Virus record (IMG/VR): IMGVR_UViG_3300036045_000028
Location: 1-42,625 of that record
Strand: one strand, 5' to 3'
Source of the DNA: a virus
DNA length: 42,625 bases
Positions within the stretch are counted from its first letter, which is position 1. Each line of letters opens with the position of its first letter. A program made the position numbers and the translations under genes. The notes beneath the pieces are model-generated. The model made no database searches and was not told the origin of the DNA. It was given only the letters and a program-made list of their open reading frames with translations. This document shows positions 9,292-20,560 of the stretch, piece by piece.

Positions 9292-9311
9292 GGCCGGGGT
9301 TGTGACCGGCC
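9292..9311 (-). repeat. GC-rich hairpin upstream of a ribosome site (one of four in this operon)
   Basis: GGCCGG (9292-9297) pairs with CCGGCC (9306-9311) around an 8-base loop, 12-15 bases before the ribosome site of the gene at 9266. Weaker hairpins occupy the same position before the genes starting at 8687 (8708-8723, CCGG/CCGG), 10114 (10127-10144, GCCGA/TCGGC) and 10384 (10401-10411, CCCG/CGGG). The copies near 8715 and 9301 share TTGTGACCGG. Confidence 0.5.
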
Positions 9312-9368
9312 TCCCGCATTACGCCGGGATAACCCGGCTCACTCTGCGCTAGATTTTAACGATTTTCT

Positions 9369-12290: not shown

Positions 12291-12544
12291 TCTAAAACAC
12301 CATGAGGAACAAGATTAACCAGGTCTTTATCATGTTAACACGAACCAACTCAGACACAGAATAGTGAATTTGTATTGCCTATAGTGGACTTAGTAAGATG
12401 TTAAGGCATATTACTACTATGTAATGTCGGTGAAGCCCTGATAATACTGGATTGTTAGGTTACCATAATGAATACTATAGGACATTGTGTATGAATGTGG
12501 TGTTACTCAGGTGGTAGTGAATAACGAAATAGGAGGTGATATGT
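12291..12544. other. Non-coding stretch before the terminase genes
   Basis: No convincing gene is seen on either strand between the 28-codon frame and the terminase small subunit ribosome site (ATAGGAGGTGATATGT). Together with 11950-12203 it forms a mostly untranslated late leader. A packaging start site (cos or pac) would fit here, but no repeat or palindrome clear enough to name one was found. Confidence 0.45.
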
Positions 12545-12904
12545 ATGGCTGGAAAACAACAGGAAGCAAAAAAACCCAGAAAAATGAATCCTAATAGTTT
12601 GGCTAATCTTAGGGCAAATGCTAACCCTGGCGGCAGGCCAAAAGCGTCGGATGAGTATAAGGCGTTAGTAAAAGCTAATACCGTGCAGGCTATGCAAACT
12701 GTAATTGATTTGATGCGTAATAGCCCCAAAGAGGACATAAGGCTTAAAGCAGCACAAGAGGTAATCGATAGGGCATACGGTAAGGCAGCACAGCCGATAG
12801 TCGGCGACAAGGAATTTGATCCGATGCAAATTAATTATGCGGACGCCGCGCTGGTGGAGGCGAGAATAAATGAGCTTATTGCCAAGCGAAGCACTGGAAC
12901 TTAA
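12545..12904 (+). CDS. terS: Terminase small subunit-like protein
   Basis: A 119-residue protein with a near-perfect ribosome site (TAGGAGGTGATATGT) before ATG 12545. The basic N-terminus (A-K-K-P-R-K-M-N) followed by N-P-G-G-R-P-K resembles DUF5681 or small-terminase openings; helices follow, including V-I-D-L-M-R-N and D-I-R-L-K-A-A-Q-E-V-I-D-R-A-Y-G-K. Position directly before the large subunit supports the assignment. It would recognise the packaging site and load the motor. It overlaps the large subunit start by 35 bases. Confidence 0.68.
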   Translation: MAGKQQEAKKPRKMNPNSLANLRANANPGGRPKASDEYKALVKANTVQAMQTVIDLMRNSPKEDIRLKAAQEVIDRAYGKAAQPIVGDKEFDPMQINYADAALVEARINELIAKRSTGT

Positions 12905-13520
12905 GCGGCTCTTGGAATGGCAGGCGTGGAGTAAAGACCCCTGGCAATGGATAAAAGACTGTGTTATCACAATCGATGAAACAGACGGTACGCGAAAGCC
13001 TTTTCCTGATAAAGAATATTTTCCCTACGTGATAAATGCCTGGATGGAATCAAACATATTAGCAATACCAAAGTCACGTCGTATGATGGCAACATGGCTT
13101 TTTCTTGCGCTGCATCTGTGGGCGGCATTGTTTAGGGCCAACAGCGCGGTATTTATCCAAAGTCAAAAAGCCGAGAAATCCGAGTGGCTTGTAGGTGACC
13201 AGCGCATGTGGTTTATTTATAGCAACCTGCCGACAGAATATCCTTGGCCCAAGACTACCCGACTACTCAAGGGTAAGGGCGGGATAAGCCATGTAGTATT
13301 TGACAATGGCTCATACATCATGGCAATCGGCGAGGGTGCTGACCAGTTTCGGCAGTACACGGCATCGCATGTAATGTTGGATGAGGTGGCCTTCTGGGAG
13401 CGGGCAAAGGAATCATATACTGGGACGCTGCCGACTATACAGGGCGGTGGTAAGGTTGTGCTGATTAGTACGGCAGAGCCTGGGTTTTTTGAGCAGGTAG
13501 TAATGGGGAGGATGGAATAG
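12870..13520 (+). CDS. terL: Terminase large subunit, N-terminal ATPase half (split gene)
   Basis: This frame encodes 216 residues of the packaging ATPase. The Walker A-type segment is I-P-K-S-R-R-M-M-A-T-W near residue 67, Walker B is HVMLDEVAFW near residue 168, and the coupling-like V-V-L-I-S-T-A-E-P-G-F-F follows near residue 198. The frame then stops at TAG 13518-13520, where complete terminases continue into the nuclease domain. The missing half is encoded at 14139-14957 in the same frame phase, beyond an HNH endonuclease gene. The break falls between the ATPase and nuclease domains, so the halves may assemble into a working motor. Confidence 0.88.
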   Translation: MSLLPSEALELKRLLEWQAWSKDPWQWIKDCVITIDETDGTRKPFPDKEYFPYVINAWMESNILAIPKSRRMMATWLFLALHLWAALFRANSAVFIQSQKAEKSEWLVGDQRMWFIYSNLPTEYPWPKTTRLLKGKGGISHVVFDNGSYIMAIGEGADQFRQYTASHVMLDEVAFWERAKESYTGTLPTIQGGGKVVLISTAEPGFFEQVVMGRME

Positions 13521-14170
13521 TGGGGCACAAAAGACCATCACACATATTTATTGGTGATATTGAAATGAAAACGTGTAGTTTGTGTCGCAACACTAAATCG
13601 TTATTGGAGTTTAATAAGAGAAGCGACACGTGGGACGGGTTAAATGCAAAATGTCGTCAGTGCGACAATTTAAAAAGTCGCGAGTATCACGCAAACAACA
13701 TAGAAAAGAGTCGTTGCGCTAATAGAAGATGGCAAAAAACCAATATAAAGCGGGTCTTGGAATACCAGTCTAAATACCGCAAGGAAAACAGTGAAAAGGT
13801 TAATATGTGGAAAAGGGCATGGGAACAGAGAAACAAGCCAAAGCTGTGCGTGTCGCAGCAGCGGCATAGGCATAGACGTAAAAATCTTCCTGCGCTCTTA
13901 ACACCTCAGGATTTTGAAGAATGCTTAAAGTTTTTTGATTATAAAGATGCTTACACTGGTGAGCCGATGGATATTATTACTCAAGATCACGTCGTGCCAG
14001 TTATACAAAACGGCCACTATGTTAAAGGCAACATTATCCCATGCGACAAGAGAATAAATGCAAGCAAGGGGGGCAAGCGGCTGGAAGAATGGTATATTAA
14101 ACAGCCGTTTTTTAGTGCCCAAAGATTAGAAAAGGTTTATGAGTGGATGCGCCATGCAGGGAATTACTGA
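13520..14170 (+). CDS. HNH homing endonuclease inserted in the large terminase gene
   Basis: A 216-residue protein. GTG 13520 overlaps the ATPase-half stop, with GGGGAGG eight bases upstream inside that gene; ATG 13565 is an alternative start. The N-terminal part has a zinc site (K-T-C-S-L-C-R-N and K-C-R-Q-C). A basic helical linker follows. The nuclease motif is T-Q-D-H-V-V-P-V, then G-N-I-I-P-C-D and N-A-S-K-G-G, the H-N-N/H elements. The gene fills almost the whole insertion, and its end overlaps the start of the nuclease half, so there is no room for an intron core. It is thus a free-standing mobile endonuclease. Confidence 0.87.
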   Translation: MGHKRPSHIFIGDIEMKTCSLCRNTKSLLEFNKRSDTWDGLNAKCRQCDNLKSREYHANNIEKSRCANRRWQKTNIKRVLEYQSKYRKENSEKVNMWKRAWEQRNKPKLCVSQQRHRHRRKNLPALLTPQDFEECLKFFDYKDAYTGEPMDIITQDHVVPVIQNGHYVKGNIIPCDKRINASKGGKRLEEWYIKQPFFSAQRLEKVYEWMRHAGNY

Positions 14171-14957
14171 TTTTATAACGCCTCAGAAAGTCCGAGTAGT
14201 GCAAATACATTATTCGGCTGATCCCGATAAGCGCAGTCAGGAGTGGATAGACAAAGCCCATGAGGGCATGAGTAAGGCGATGTGGGAAAAGGAGATGGAA
14301 ATAAACTTTGCTGTTGTGCTAGGCAAGGCGTGGTTTCCTGAGTTTCGCAAAGGATTTCACGTCGCTCAATCTCACATAGAACCTATATCTGGGCGCCCTG
14401 TTTTTAGGGGATGGGACTATGGTCTAACCCCCGCCACCGTATTTGGACAGACAACGGCTAAAGGGCAACTATTGATACTTAACCCCGAATTGCAGTCATG
14501 GGATAACGGTATAACGGCCCACGGCCTTGTGGTGCAGACTGAGAGCGCGACATACTTTCCGGGGTATAAGTTTATTGATTACGGCGACCCGGCAGGCAAT
14601 CAGAGGGCGCAGACGGATGAGCAAAGCTGTAATGATATTCTGCGTGATAAATATGGCATAAACGTCCAGCCCGGCCCTGTAGCTGAGATGGCAAGGCATG
14701 AGGCCCTAAGGACGCTGCTGACCACACTGACGCCTGATGGACAGCCTATGATGCTGATTGACCCACGCTGTACGCTGTTAATCCAAGCGTTAGAGGGTGG
14801 GTATCAGCACAAAGAGGTGGCAGGCAAATACCTGGATATAGTAGCCGACAATAAATATACGCACATCATGGACGCCTTGATGTATGTGGCGGCAATGGTT
14901 AAGGTTAAGCCCAAGAAATGGGAAGATGCGAATATCCCACGGGCGGGGCGAATGTAG
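14139..14957 (+). CDS. terL: Terminase large subunit, C-terminal nuclease half (split gene)
   Basis: A 272-residue protein that starts at ATG 14139 (AGAAAAGG upstream) or at ATG 14154, both inside the end of the HNH gene. Native terminase sequence seems to begin at M-Q-G-I-T-D-F. The RNase H-like nuclease motifs are present: R-G-W-D-Y-G-L-T-P-A near residue 88, F-I-D-Y-G-D-P-A-G near residue 145, and N-K-Y-T-H-I-M-D-A-L near residue 247. This half cuts the concatemer. Removing the 642 bases between ATG 13512 and ATG 14154 would restore a single frame of about 481 residues, a normal length. Confidence 0.87.
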   Translation: MSGCAMQGITDFITPQKVRVVQIHYSADPDKRSQEWIDKAHEGMSKAMWEKEMEINFAVVLGKAWFPEFRKGFHVAQSHIEPISGRPVFRGWDYGLTPATVFGQTTAKGQLLILNPELQSWDNGITAHGLVVQTESATYFPGYKFIDYGDPAGNQRAQTDEQSCNDILRDKYGINVQPGPVAEMARHEALRTLLTTLTPDGQPMMLIDPRCTLLIQALEGGYQHKEVAGKYLDIVADNKYTHIMDALMYVAAMVKVKPKKWEDANIPRAGRM

Positions 14958-14967
14958 GAGGTAGAGC

Positions 14968-16872
14968 ATGGCAATAGACGGGGAAGTCCAAGGGACGCCA
15001 CCGGAGCAGCAGGACGAGATGCTGCTGGAGCGGCTTAAGATTGATATTGAAGAGGCTAACAGGCACTTTGAAAACGAGATTGAACCAATGTTGTTGACCC
15101 GCAACAAGGTCTACACTGGCGACAAAGACTATTATAAACAGATATATCCTGACCTGTCAGAGGTGTCAGACCTTGTTACCACGGATTTGGCCGACATTAT
15201 TGAGTGGTCTATGCCGTCACTGATGAAAGCCTATTTTGGTGGAGCCGATATTGTGTCTATTAAGGGTGTAGGCGCAGAAGACGAAGAACCGGCCAAAGTA
15301 ATGGAGGCATTAGTCAATTATCAGTTGACGAAGCTTAATAAATTTTTTGTTATCTGTTATGACTGGATAAAACAAGCCTTTATCGAAAACGCCGCGGCGA
15401 TTAAGTGTAGCTGGGCGCGAGAAACAAAGCGGGATAAGACATTTGTGGAGGTGCTGGCAGCTGAACAGGTTGAGGCGTTAAAGGCAACGCCTGGCGCTGA
15501 GGTTATATCTGCAGAACCCATTCCTGACGCTCTTGACCTATACAAAGTCGAATTCGCTACCCTGCGCCTGGCAAAAAATCATCCCACAGTTGAAAACATA
15601 TCTGCTTCTGAACTCAGGTTCTCGCCGGATGCCGTGGATTTTGACAAATGTCAGTTTGTGGCGCATCGTAAGATAGTAACGGTGGATTATATCCGCAAGC
15701 TGGAGAAAGAGGGCCTCTATAGCAACGTTGATGAGGTTGTGGAAAATCTTGGGGATGTGAAATATACCACGTCAGAGGAAGTCAATAACCCCGAAATCAA
15801 CACGCATTCCCGCAACCAAAGCCACATAGCCCGGAAAAAGGTTACTCTGTATGAGTGCTATGTCAAGGTTGATATGGACGGCGACCAGATACTCGAAGAC
15901 TGGATTATCACTGTTGCAAATAACGTAATTATCCGCAAAGAGCAAAACCCATATGACCGGCATCCGTTCTTTTTGCTAAGCCCGGTACGCGACCCACACC
16001 GTATTTGGCCCAAGAAAGGCATAGGCCAATTCGTCAGCGAGATACAAAGTCTTAAAACAGCTTTCCTCAGGCAGATTATCAATAACACGGCGCTGAATAA
16101 TGACCTGCCGGCCTTTGTGGACGAAAATAAAGTTAATATTATGGACGTTGTAGAGCGGCGCAAGACCATTCGGGTATCCGGCCAGCCTGGGCAGGCCGTA
16201 TCATTTCCGCCGCTGCAGCCCATGGCCCCCTGGACAATGAATTTCCTGGAGTATCTAGAGAGCGCCAAAGAGCAGGCCACAGGGGTAACGAGGTATAATC
16301 AGGGGCTGGACAGTAACAGCCTCAACAAAACGGCCACCGGCATATCCATCATCCATGAATCCAGCAACCAAAGGCTTGAGCTAGTTGCAAGGATACTCCT
16401 GGAAACCGCCCTGCAGCCGTTCTTTCGGTTCCTGATTAGTCTTAACCAAAGGTTTATTGACCAGCCGCAGGTAATTAGACTGGCCAATAAGCCGCTTTTG
16501 ATCCGGGGGGATGACTTGCAAGGCAACTTTGACCTGGAGATAAATGCTGCCTTGGGTGTAGGCTCTAAACAAAACGAAATTCAGTATCTCCAGATGTTGC
16601 TGGGCATGTATCCCCAGTTAATGCAGGTTGGCATTGTCCAGCCTCAGAACATTTACAACGCGGTGAAAAAGATGCTGGAAATCATGGGGTATAAGAACGC
16701 AGGTGAATTCATCACCGAACCGCAGCAGATGCAGCAATTCCCGCCCGAGGTAATACAAGTGGCTCAGCAGACAGGGATTCCACCGGAGCAGGTAATGCAG
16801 GCAATGATGGGAGGTGGCGGCAATGGACCAGGCACAGGCCCTGCGCCTGCAGGCCCAGTGCAACCAGGGTGA
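14968..16872 (+). CDS. Portal protein (short-tailed phage type)
   Basis: A 634-residue protein with GTAGGAGGTAGAGC before ATG 14968. The N-terminal E-A-N-R-H-F-E segment, T-D-L-A-D-I-I-E-W-S-M-P-S-L near residue 74, a central beta-rich wing, and the stem and crown region with S-L-K-T-A-F-L-R-Q-I-I-N-N-T near residue 360 and G-L-D-S-N-S-L-N-K-T-A-T-G near residue 445 are typical of P22/T7-type portals. The C-terminus is glutamine- and glycine-rich, like a portal barrel tail. It forms the dodecameric ring through which DNA is pumped. Confidence 0.87.
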   Translation: MAIDGEVQGTPPEQQDEMLLERLKIDIEEANRHFENEIEPMLLTRNKVYTGDKDYYKQIYPDLSEVSDLVTTDLADIIEWSMPSLMKAYFGGADIVSIKGVGAEDEEPAKVMEALVNYQLTKLNKFFVICYDWIKQAFIENAAAIKCSWARETKRDKTFVEVLAAEQVEALKATPGAEVISAEPIPDALDLYKVEFATLRLAKNHPTVENISASELRFSPDAVDFDKCQFVAHRKIVTVDYIRKLEKEGLYSNVDEVVENLGDVKYTTSEEVNNPEINTHSRNQSHIARKKVTLYECYVKVDMDGDQILEDWIITVANNVIIRKEQNPYDRHPFFLLSPVRDPHRIWPKKGIGQFVSEIQSLKTAFLRQIINNTALNNDLPAFVDENKVNIMDVVERRKTIRVSGQPGQAVSFPPLQPMAPWTMNFLEYLESAKEQATGVTRYNQGLDSNSLNKTATGISIIHESSNQRLELVARILLETALQPFFRFLISLNQRFIDQPQVIRLANKPLLIRGDDLQGNFDLEINAALGVGSKQNEIQYLQMLLGMYPQLMQVGIVQPQNIYNAVKKMLEIMGYKNAGEFITEPQQMQQFPPEVIQVAQQTGIPPEQVMQAMMGGGGNGPGTGPAPAGPVQPG

Positions 16873-18853: not shown

Positions 18854-19169
18854 ATGGCAAGCCGTTCCTGGGAAATCGTCGGTTCTGTTGACGATTTAAC
18901 ACCCGTAATAACCAATATTTCCCCCTCAGTTACCCCGCTATTCTCCAAGTTTAGCCGGGTAGAGGTAAAAAACACCACTCATGGTGCGTTGACTGACGCT
19001 CTGCCTGTTGCCGTTATTCCTAATATTGCAGAGGGTTCTGACTTCGTGACCACCGCCGCCAACGCCCGGACGCGGCTGGATAACTATACTCAGATTTTTG
19101 ACCGTGGCTACTGGGTGACTGACACCGACGAAGCTGTCTTGAAGAAAGGTGTATCGTCTGAAATTGAGT
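18854..19169 (+). CDS. Major capsid protein, exon 1 (joined to 20007-20560)
   Basis: AAAAGGAGTGAATAAATT precedes ATG 18854. The first 105 residues (start A-S-R-S-W-E-I-V-G-S) resemble the DUF5309/SU10-type major capsid family, with N-terminal arm P-L-F-S-K-F-S-R-V and E-G-S-D-F-V. Unspliced, the frame runs into intron sequence and ends at TAA 19187-19189. The exon ends at T19169, where A-T-T-G-A-G-T pairs with intron G-C-T-C-A-A-T (19180-19186) as P1 with the usual U-G pair at the splice site. Spliced protein length is 289 residues (316+554 bases). Confidence 0.86.
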
Positions 19170-20006
19170 TAAATTGGTGGCTCAATTAAAACTTGACCAA
19201 ATGCTGGAACACCCTAAAGCCCAAACTACCGAAGTGTGAAAATGTGAGGGATGAGCAAATGCAAAATGGGCAATCAGCAGGTAAGAGTTTTGCCTATATA
19301 CTTGGAACATATTTAAGTGATGGATGTGTAACAAAAGAATATGGTAAAAATGTTTTTAGGTTAGAAGTTATGGACGAAGATTATGCCATAGCTTTTTTTA
19401 ATGCCTTGAAACGTTACGGTGTAAATCATCTCAAGAGTTACAAAATTAAAAACGAGAGATACAAGCGGGGCTACTCGTTCTTTGTTGTAACCAGAGATAA
19501 TGATTTATGCGAGCGACTACTACTAGAAACCAACAGAAAGAGTATAATTCCATCTTATGTATTTAAATGGGACAAGCACATAAAAAGGGAGTTTATTGCG
19601 GGTATGATGGATGGCGAAGGTTATGCGTCAAAACGCAAAAAGCCTCTTAGAAATGGCTCCCAAAATTATCAATTGGGAATAGGGATGGAATACAAGCTAT
19701 TAGAGCAGTTCAAGCGCATACTTCAATCTGTTGGTGTATCTGTTGGTAAGTTCACTTTTGCAAAGAAAGTAGTAAATAAACAAGTAGCATCCATATCACT
19801 TAACATCAAGTCTTGGCATGAGGCTGGATGTTATTTTTACATCCAGCGGCATCAATCCCGGATAAACGAGTATATACGCAATACTAACCTCAACGACTAT
19901 ACGTCGAGAGCGGTTTAATGCCGCTATGATATAGTCTGAACACTGACCGAAAGACAGTGAGGCAGGCAGAAATGGCCTGCCCCCGCGTAAGCGGAGTAAC
20001 AAAATG
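19170..20006 (+). mobile_element. Group I intron in the major capsid gene
   Basis: The 837-base intron interrupts the capsid gene. P1 is exon 19162-19169 with guide 19180-19187. P10 is exon ACC (20007-20009) with GGT (19176-19178). The core has GGGCAATCAGCAG at 19268-19280 (P4/P6 side) and ATGATATAGTCTGAAC at 19926-19941 (P7 side). After P7 come three hairpins (CACTG...CAGTG, GGCAGGC...GCCTGCC, CCGC...GCGG), a P9 series. The intron ends with G20006. Splicing T19169 to A20007 gives ...GAG-TAC-CAA-ATG..., which restores the capsid reading frame. Confidence 0.9.
19259..19918 (+). CDS. LAGLIDADG homing endonuclease in the capsid intron
   Basis: A 219-residue protein with two LAGLIDADG motifs: A-Y-I-L-G-T-Y-L-S-D-G at residues 12-22 and E-F-I-A-G-M-M-D-G-E-G at 111-121, so it acts as a monomer with two half-sites. 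It cuts intron-less capsid genes and drives intron spread. ATG 19259 has GAGGG upstream, but GTG 19244 and TTG 19193 are in frame. The 5' end of the gene overlaps the intron core (19268-19280), an arrangement known in phage introns, so translation and folding may compete. Confidence 0.88.
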   Translation: MQNGQSAGKSFAYILGTYLSDGCVTKEYGKNVFRLEVMDEDYAIAFFNALKRYGVNHLKSYKIKNERYKRGYSFFVVTRDNDLCERLLLETNRKSIIPSYVFKWDKHIKREFIAGMMDGEGYASKRKKPLRNGSQNYQLGIGMEYKLLEQFKRILQSVGVSVGKFTFAKKVVNKQVASISLNIKSWHEAGCYFYIQRHQSRINEYIRNTNLNDYTSRAV

Positions 20007-20560
20007 ACCAAATGGGCATTGCCATGAAAGCCATTGCCCTTGATGTTGAGTTGGCTATCGTCACCAGCGCCACTGCAACCAAACAAGACGGCACAAACAA
20101 TGGCAAGTTTGGCGGGATTCCGTATTTTAATACCTTGAATGCGAAGGATATGGCCAGTGCAGCTCTAACCGAAACTGCGTTCAATGATGCCATCCAAAAC
20201 GCCTGGAACAAAGGCGGCGTCATTGATACTGCGGTTGTGTCGGGTAAGAGCAAGCGAGCTATTTCGGCTTTTACCGCCGGGGCCCAGAAGACCAGGGACC
20301 AAAAGGAGAAGAAGGCGGTAAATGTTATTGACATTTATCAGTCGGATTTCGGTGAGGTTACGCTAATGGCTCACCGGCAGCAGGTGGACAGCCGCATCGA
20401 CATTATCGAATCCCAGTACTTCCGCATGGGCTTTTTAGTGCCTTTCCACAGGGAGGATTTGCCGAAGAAGGGGCACAAGATCGAGAAGGTTATTACCGGA
20501 CAGGTTACAATGGAATGTCGTTCGCGGGACGCCAACGCATCCATTATCAATATCGTATAA
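20007..20560 (+). CDS. Major capsid protein, exon 2
   Basis: The C-terminal 184 residues of the capsid protein. After splicing it continues E-Y-Q-M-G-I-A-M-K-A-I-A-L-D-V-E, the helical stretch expected after exon 1. It includes N-N-G-K-F-G-G-I-P-Y-F, V-V-S-G-K-S-K-R-A-I and the E-loop or P-domain-like strands near D-I-Y-Q-S-D-F-G. It could be read alone from ATG 20012, but no ribosome site is there, so it depends on splicing. A strong terminator follows at 20562. Confidence 0.86.

Follow-up and report, generated by a model that had tools for sequence, protein, structure and literature searches.

A terminase large subunit probably encoded by two adjacent genes, with an HNH endonuclease gene at their junction

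The window analyzed here is the whole 42,625-nucleotide stretch of IMG/VR virus record IMGVR_UViG_3300036045_000028. The terminase large subunit (TerL), a common marker gene, has been described as universal among tailed phages and is usually regarded as a single protein with two domains. In the window, the ATPase and nuclease motifs of TerL are carried by two separate adjacent ORFs, with an HNH endonuclease ORF between them (Table 1). The three ORFs listed in the preliminary description, with the last one given as 14139-14957, are all present, and their family matches are to TerL ATPase, HNH/endonuclease VII and TerL nuclease. Chain 1 is T4-like and has a P-loop variant, Walker B and motif III; the start of its gene is overlapped by the small-terminase-like ORF. 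Chain 2 has an RNase H fold and acidic catalytic residues, with the nuclease motifs WDYG, DYGDPAGN and the acidic residues of THIMDA. Its likely start is ATG 14154 (MQGITDF), which lines up with the starts of relatives, and ATG 14139 is a possible alternative. The ggggagg stretch at the 3' end of the ATPase gene resembles a Shine-Dalgarno sequence, as judged from similar purine-rich stretches that lie 5' of the nuclease start in relatives. The HNH ORF starts at GTG 13520 or, likelier, at ATG 13565, which gives 201 aa. NCBIfam held no model for either TerL half, and a DNA-level search of phage records gave no match. A 4,621-bp contig (L001) is identical to the window and has the same arrangement; since not a single difference separates the two, it may come from the same virus or assembly and is a weak replication.

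Table 1. Positions of genes and motifs in the terminase region of the window.
Feature	Position	Strand	Basis
Probable small terminase, directly 5' of TerL	12536..12904	+	Weak PHROG matches phrog_10899, phrog_2538 (terminase small subunit)
TerL chain 1, ATPase core, 216 aa	12870..13520	+	Match to terminase large subunit in PHROG (E=1e-10); alignment of the family profile with T4 gp17
Chain 1 PKSRRMM	13068-13097	+	Motif coordinates
Chain 1 Walker B MLDE	13371-13397	+	Motif coordinates
Chain 1 motif III ISTAEPG	13461-13484	+	Motif coordinates
ggggagg, Shine-Dalgarno-like, at 3' end of ATPase gene	13505..13511	+	Sequence
HNH endonuclease ORF	13520..14170	+	phrog_1035 endonuclease VII, E=1e-25; CxxC pairs and DH..N..N motif
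TerL chain 2, 267 aa from ATG 14154	14154..14957	+	TerL nuclease family match; RNase H fold and acidic residues
Chain 2 final ATPase strands and lid, VVQIHYSADP	14196-14225		
Portal protein, SU10 type, directly 3' of chain 2	14968..16872	+	PF23899, E=5e-143

Relatives were collected from viral contigs, searched first with the individual halves and afterwards with profiles, from bacterial genomes, and from the class to which the Megasphaera genome belongs, where 10 of 301 genomes were positive. Thirty-three family loci were used for trees. The ATPase and the nuclease lie in separate ORFs in 26 of these, mostly metagenomic, and in one ORF in the other 7. The sister BcepC6B-type family, which shares the nuclease profile without this ATPase type, served as the control; 46 of its 47 loci have one ORF, and only L072 is broken. 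With BcepC6B-type TerLs as the root, the nuclease tree gathers the fused L030, L078 and L095 into one starred clade together with 21 split loci, and the three fused members are nested there under several starred nodes. The fused L079-L081 and L083 fall outside that clade, and the position of the split L088 is uncertain. An ATPase tree, which had no outgroup, needs 2-3 changes as well. The rooted tree is best and most simply read as one old fission with later re-fusion, a history in which the root of the whole family and the placement of L088 are uncertain. At the break, a variable linker of ~15-20 aa is present in fused members, and L095 keeps DVMQGVHEY where split relatives begin MQGITEY, which fits re-fusion.

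The trees of the ATPase and nuclease halves disagree with each other. The window and L005 share 85% residue identity in the ATPase and 58% in the nuclease, while the corresponding values for L019 and L092 are 47% and 81%. The TerL halves have been exchanged independently of each other. The record of another split relative (L027, record G312) encodes part of a capsid protein 80% identical to that of the window and a terminase nuclease chain only ~56% identical, as in mosaic genomes. In L084 (4843-6357), the nuclease chain of the split TerL also bears an intein splicing domain (PF14890).

The break follows ATPase motif III by 12-20 residues; chain 2 therefore includes the end of the ATPase domain (its last strands and the lid) as well as the RNase H nuclease. 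For the fused L095 protein, AlphaFold gives a model with a mean pLDDT of 90, in which motif III lies at ~202-212, an acidic, low-confidence linker at ~222-236, strands at 240-253, lid helices at 264-282 and the RNase H domain from ~318. At the break, near residues 222-237 of this model, pLDDT dips to 62. The best PDB match of this model found by Foldseek was T4 gp17, whose ATPase domain alone aligns to it over 282 columns at 3.3 Å, past the break. Chain 2 of the window, modeled alone, is predicted to be compact with the same strands and helices, and its fold matches the terminases or nucleases of D6E, P22, SPP1 and G20c; at the sequence level, the nuclease profile matched nothing in the PDB. 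The lid of D6E TerL lies ahead of the linker that leads to the nuclease, and a P-loop arginine contacts a lid residue (PMC5727402). Taken with how far the Foldseek match extends and with this published anatomy, the secondary structure suggests that the lid belongs to chain 2. The contact between the P-loop arginine and the lid would then run between two polypeptides in the two-gene family.

The HNH gene has a GC content of 0.416, compared with 0.486-0.501 in its neighbors. Its HNH and zinc-finger motifs are intact and it occupies its own ORF in a gene junction. Besides L001, its sole close relative in the viral collection (L113, 42% identity) is free-standing beside other head genes. Its last codons overlap the nuclease start and are read out of frame, and both neighbors are thus still whole after the insertion. 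It resembles the free-standing HNH homing genes of the mobE type, likewise zinc-finger and HNH proteins in gene junctions, with its own homing activity being putative. These features indicate an ordinary free-standing homing-type endonuclease gene at a pre-existing gene junction, that is, a secondary passenger. The same junction holds other DNA in several relatives: two small ORFs in L007, ~1.3 kb in L082, a small basic ORF in L088, ~176 bp in L019, L020 and L103, ~170 bp in L084, and ~340 bp of conserved non-coding DNA in L104-L106 and L109. The insert of L082 (4571-5860) appears to contain two ORFs that are related to each other and end alike (IATAIEEKIRKLRFPGEPE, VATAIADQIRKLRFPGEPE). The gap in L104, L105, L106 and L109 contains a promoter-like TTGATA..TTACAAT, the palindrome GTGGTAAATATTACCA and a terminator-like hairpin, CCTCCAGGAGCAATCCTGGGGGTCTTTTTT. 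Rfam gave only sub-threshold matches on the conserved non-coding gap of L104-L109, which is possibly a small RNA or an attenuator.

According to the preliminary description, this phage had one TerL gene that the HNH gene divided, with fragments that reassemble in the manner of the ribonucleotide reductase split by an endonuclease gene. The HNH gene does lie exactly between the halves, and removal of 642 bases does join them in frame. Such a join is expected by chance in one case out of three, and it fails as evidence of a former single gene, since the nearest insert-free relative, L005, which has the closest ATPase and no HNH gene, still has two ORFs (VTGKLE-TGA-tatt-ATG-EGITDY) and since junction frames vary. 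The split is found at the same place without an insert in L003, L005, L006, L021, L022, L023, L024, L026, L027 and L091-L094, and other relatives carry the unrelated inserts described above. The junction reads TAATG in L003, L026, L094 and L087, TAGTG in L006, ATGA in L021 and, in frame, TAGATG (TAG-ATG) in L024; the two genes overlap by ~20-40 bases in L022, L023, L091 and L092. The comparison with split ribonucleotide reductase does not hold because insert-free relatives, which should have a single uninterrupted gene, are also split. In addition, the tree places the fission deep. If an HNH gene had instead split TerL long ago in the common ancestor, deep members should retain a remnant of it at the junction, and the junctions read contained none. 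The HNH gene was rejected as the cause of the split on account of the split, insert-free relatives, and we regard this origin as scarcely credible.

An insert that bears the HNH gene and is removed by self-splicing, as an intron, or skipped by ribosomal bypass would join the halves into one protein. This would agree with the frequent presence of HNH genes in introns, with the intron-like insert and LAGLIDADG-like ORF in the capsid gene of the same genome, and with the terL fragments of Jug phages that are joined by group I introns (PMC12363816). However, Rfam, run on the TerL junction of the window at gathering and relaxed thresholds, found no intron, even at E=5, in agreement with the earlier statement that no intron core or motifs are present there. 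Only ~50 bases lie outside the HNH ORF, and insert-free relatives keep separate genes in varying frames. A group I or group II intron in terL was rejected on the Rfam result and the ~50 bases of room, and splicing or bypass is very unlikely. A programmed frameshift or stop readthrough could also make the split only apparent by giving some fused TerL in insert-free relatives, where stop and start closely overlap and where the L024 junction is in frame. The relative frames at 22 split loci are 0 in 2, +1 in 7 and +2 in 13, as separate genes give, unlike programmed frameshifting, and the halves are 170-1,300 bp apart in the window, L007, L019, L082, L084 and L088. The varying frames and the long inserts at several loci argue against such recoding, to which we give very little weight. 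Decay of the window terminase to a pseudogene is the least credible of these alternatives. The HNH insertion and the truncation of two Negativicutes prophage relatives (L104 and L105) would be in line with decay, but every catalytic motif is kept in both halves, the neighboring packaging and head genes are present, and related split pairs are under purifying selection, with pN far below pS in both TerL halves of four pairs of relatives. The two truncated relatives resemble cryptic prophage remnants in which the nuclease gene ends after the lid and is followed by unrelated sequence.

The best overall explanation, which we consider highly probable, is an old two-gene TerL family with an HNH gene inserted later at the existing junction. 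On this reading, TerL is encoded by two adjacent genes: chain 1 is the ATPase core as far as motif III, and chain 2 begins with the final strands of the ATPase, continues with the lid and ends with the RNase H nuclease. The HNH gene is younger than this old fission; as a free-standing gene, it entered downstream of the ATPase stop codon and upstream of the ATG of the nuclease and left both genes whole. The second gene is probably translated by coupling or re-initiation, because the two genes usually abut or overlap in relatives. The chains most likely reunite as a non-covalent heterodimer in which the lid of chain 2 closes over the ATP site of chain 1. The split itself is real, ancestral and probably functional; assembly of the halves, complementation by the lid and homing by the HNH protein are inferred. 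The preliminary description is thus upheld in part. Its two-piece terminase is supported: both halves have intact motifs, relatives show purifying selection on either piece, the split is common to many phages and no intron was found. The HNH gene as the cause is not supported, and the pieces are not a clean ATPase plus a nuclease.

Two-gene terminases are already known as a kind. In isolated Arthrobacter cluster AY phages (BillyTP gp2/gp3, BlueShadow gp2/gp3), TerL is encoded after TerS in two consecutive overlapping ORFs, an arrangement typical of most of the cluster (PMC12820723, PMC11920828). The likeness is that ATPase and nuclease are two consecutive genes. The AY break, however, is at the hinge between ATPase and nuclease, with a chain 1 of 359 aa that runs ~100 residues past motif III and a chain 2 of 198 aa, whereas the break in the window leaves the lid on chain 2. 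The window-family profiles did not match cluster AY TerLs, so the two are unrelated at the profile level, and the window was rejected as an AY-type two-ORF terminase on this result and the different break position. T4 gp17-type TerLs (Terminase_6N ATPase) share the core ATPase motifs and fold, but gp17 is one polypeptide. Among named phages, the closest nuclease domain (~30% identity) is that of BcepC6B-type TerLs, which differ in having one ORF of ~475-530 aa and a canonical P-loop in the ATPase half; the chain 1 profile does not detect this half. In Jug phages, where spliced reads join the fragments (PMC12363816), and in Campylobacter phage IBB_35, where terL has an intein and an intron (PMC3322345), terL is likewise read as several ORFs with endonuclease genes nearby. 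These are joined by RNA or protein splicing, and no such element was found in the window. The phrase "split terminase" was not found in the open-access literature searched, and within that literature the break position, the wide spread and the re-fusion appear to be new.

Length filters would overlook a widespread two-gene TerL family or class its members as fragments. Because the ATP-binding core and the lid lie on opposite sides of the break, the natural halves could be mixed, titrated or swapped to test models in which force comes from movement of the lid or domain within one chain, and close relatives with a fused TerL are ready controls. The importance of the split hinges on whether the ATPase core and the lid do work across a protein interface. 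In a naturally split motor of this kind, with core and lid on different polypeptides, the coupling of P-loop arginine and lid that is proposed to power translocation would act from one protein to another, and the nuclease/lid chain could be exchanged or be present at a different copy number from the ATPase chain. We put this forward tentatively, as possible but rather unlikely.

The major capsid gene of the window is also interrupted (18854-20560, + strand). Its parts, 18854-19186 and 20012-20557, match PHROG 1328 positions 14-116 and 123-305, and between them are the group-I-like motif GATATAGTCTGAAC and an endonuclease ORF of LAGLIDADG-like type (19193-19918). The capsid protein of relatives is a single frame of ~290 aa. 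The insert is probably a group I intron that Rfam scores weakly. Elsewhere in the window, a type-P5 twister ribozyme was found at 9294-9348 on the minus strand (62 bits).
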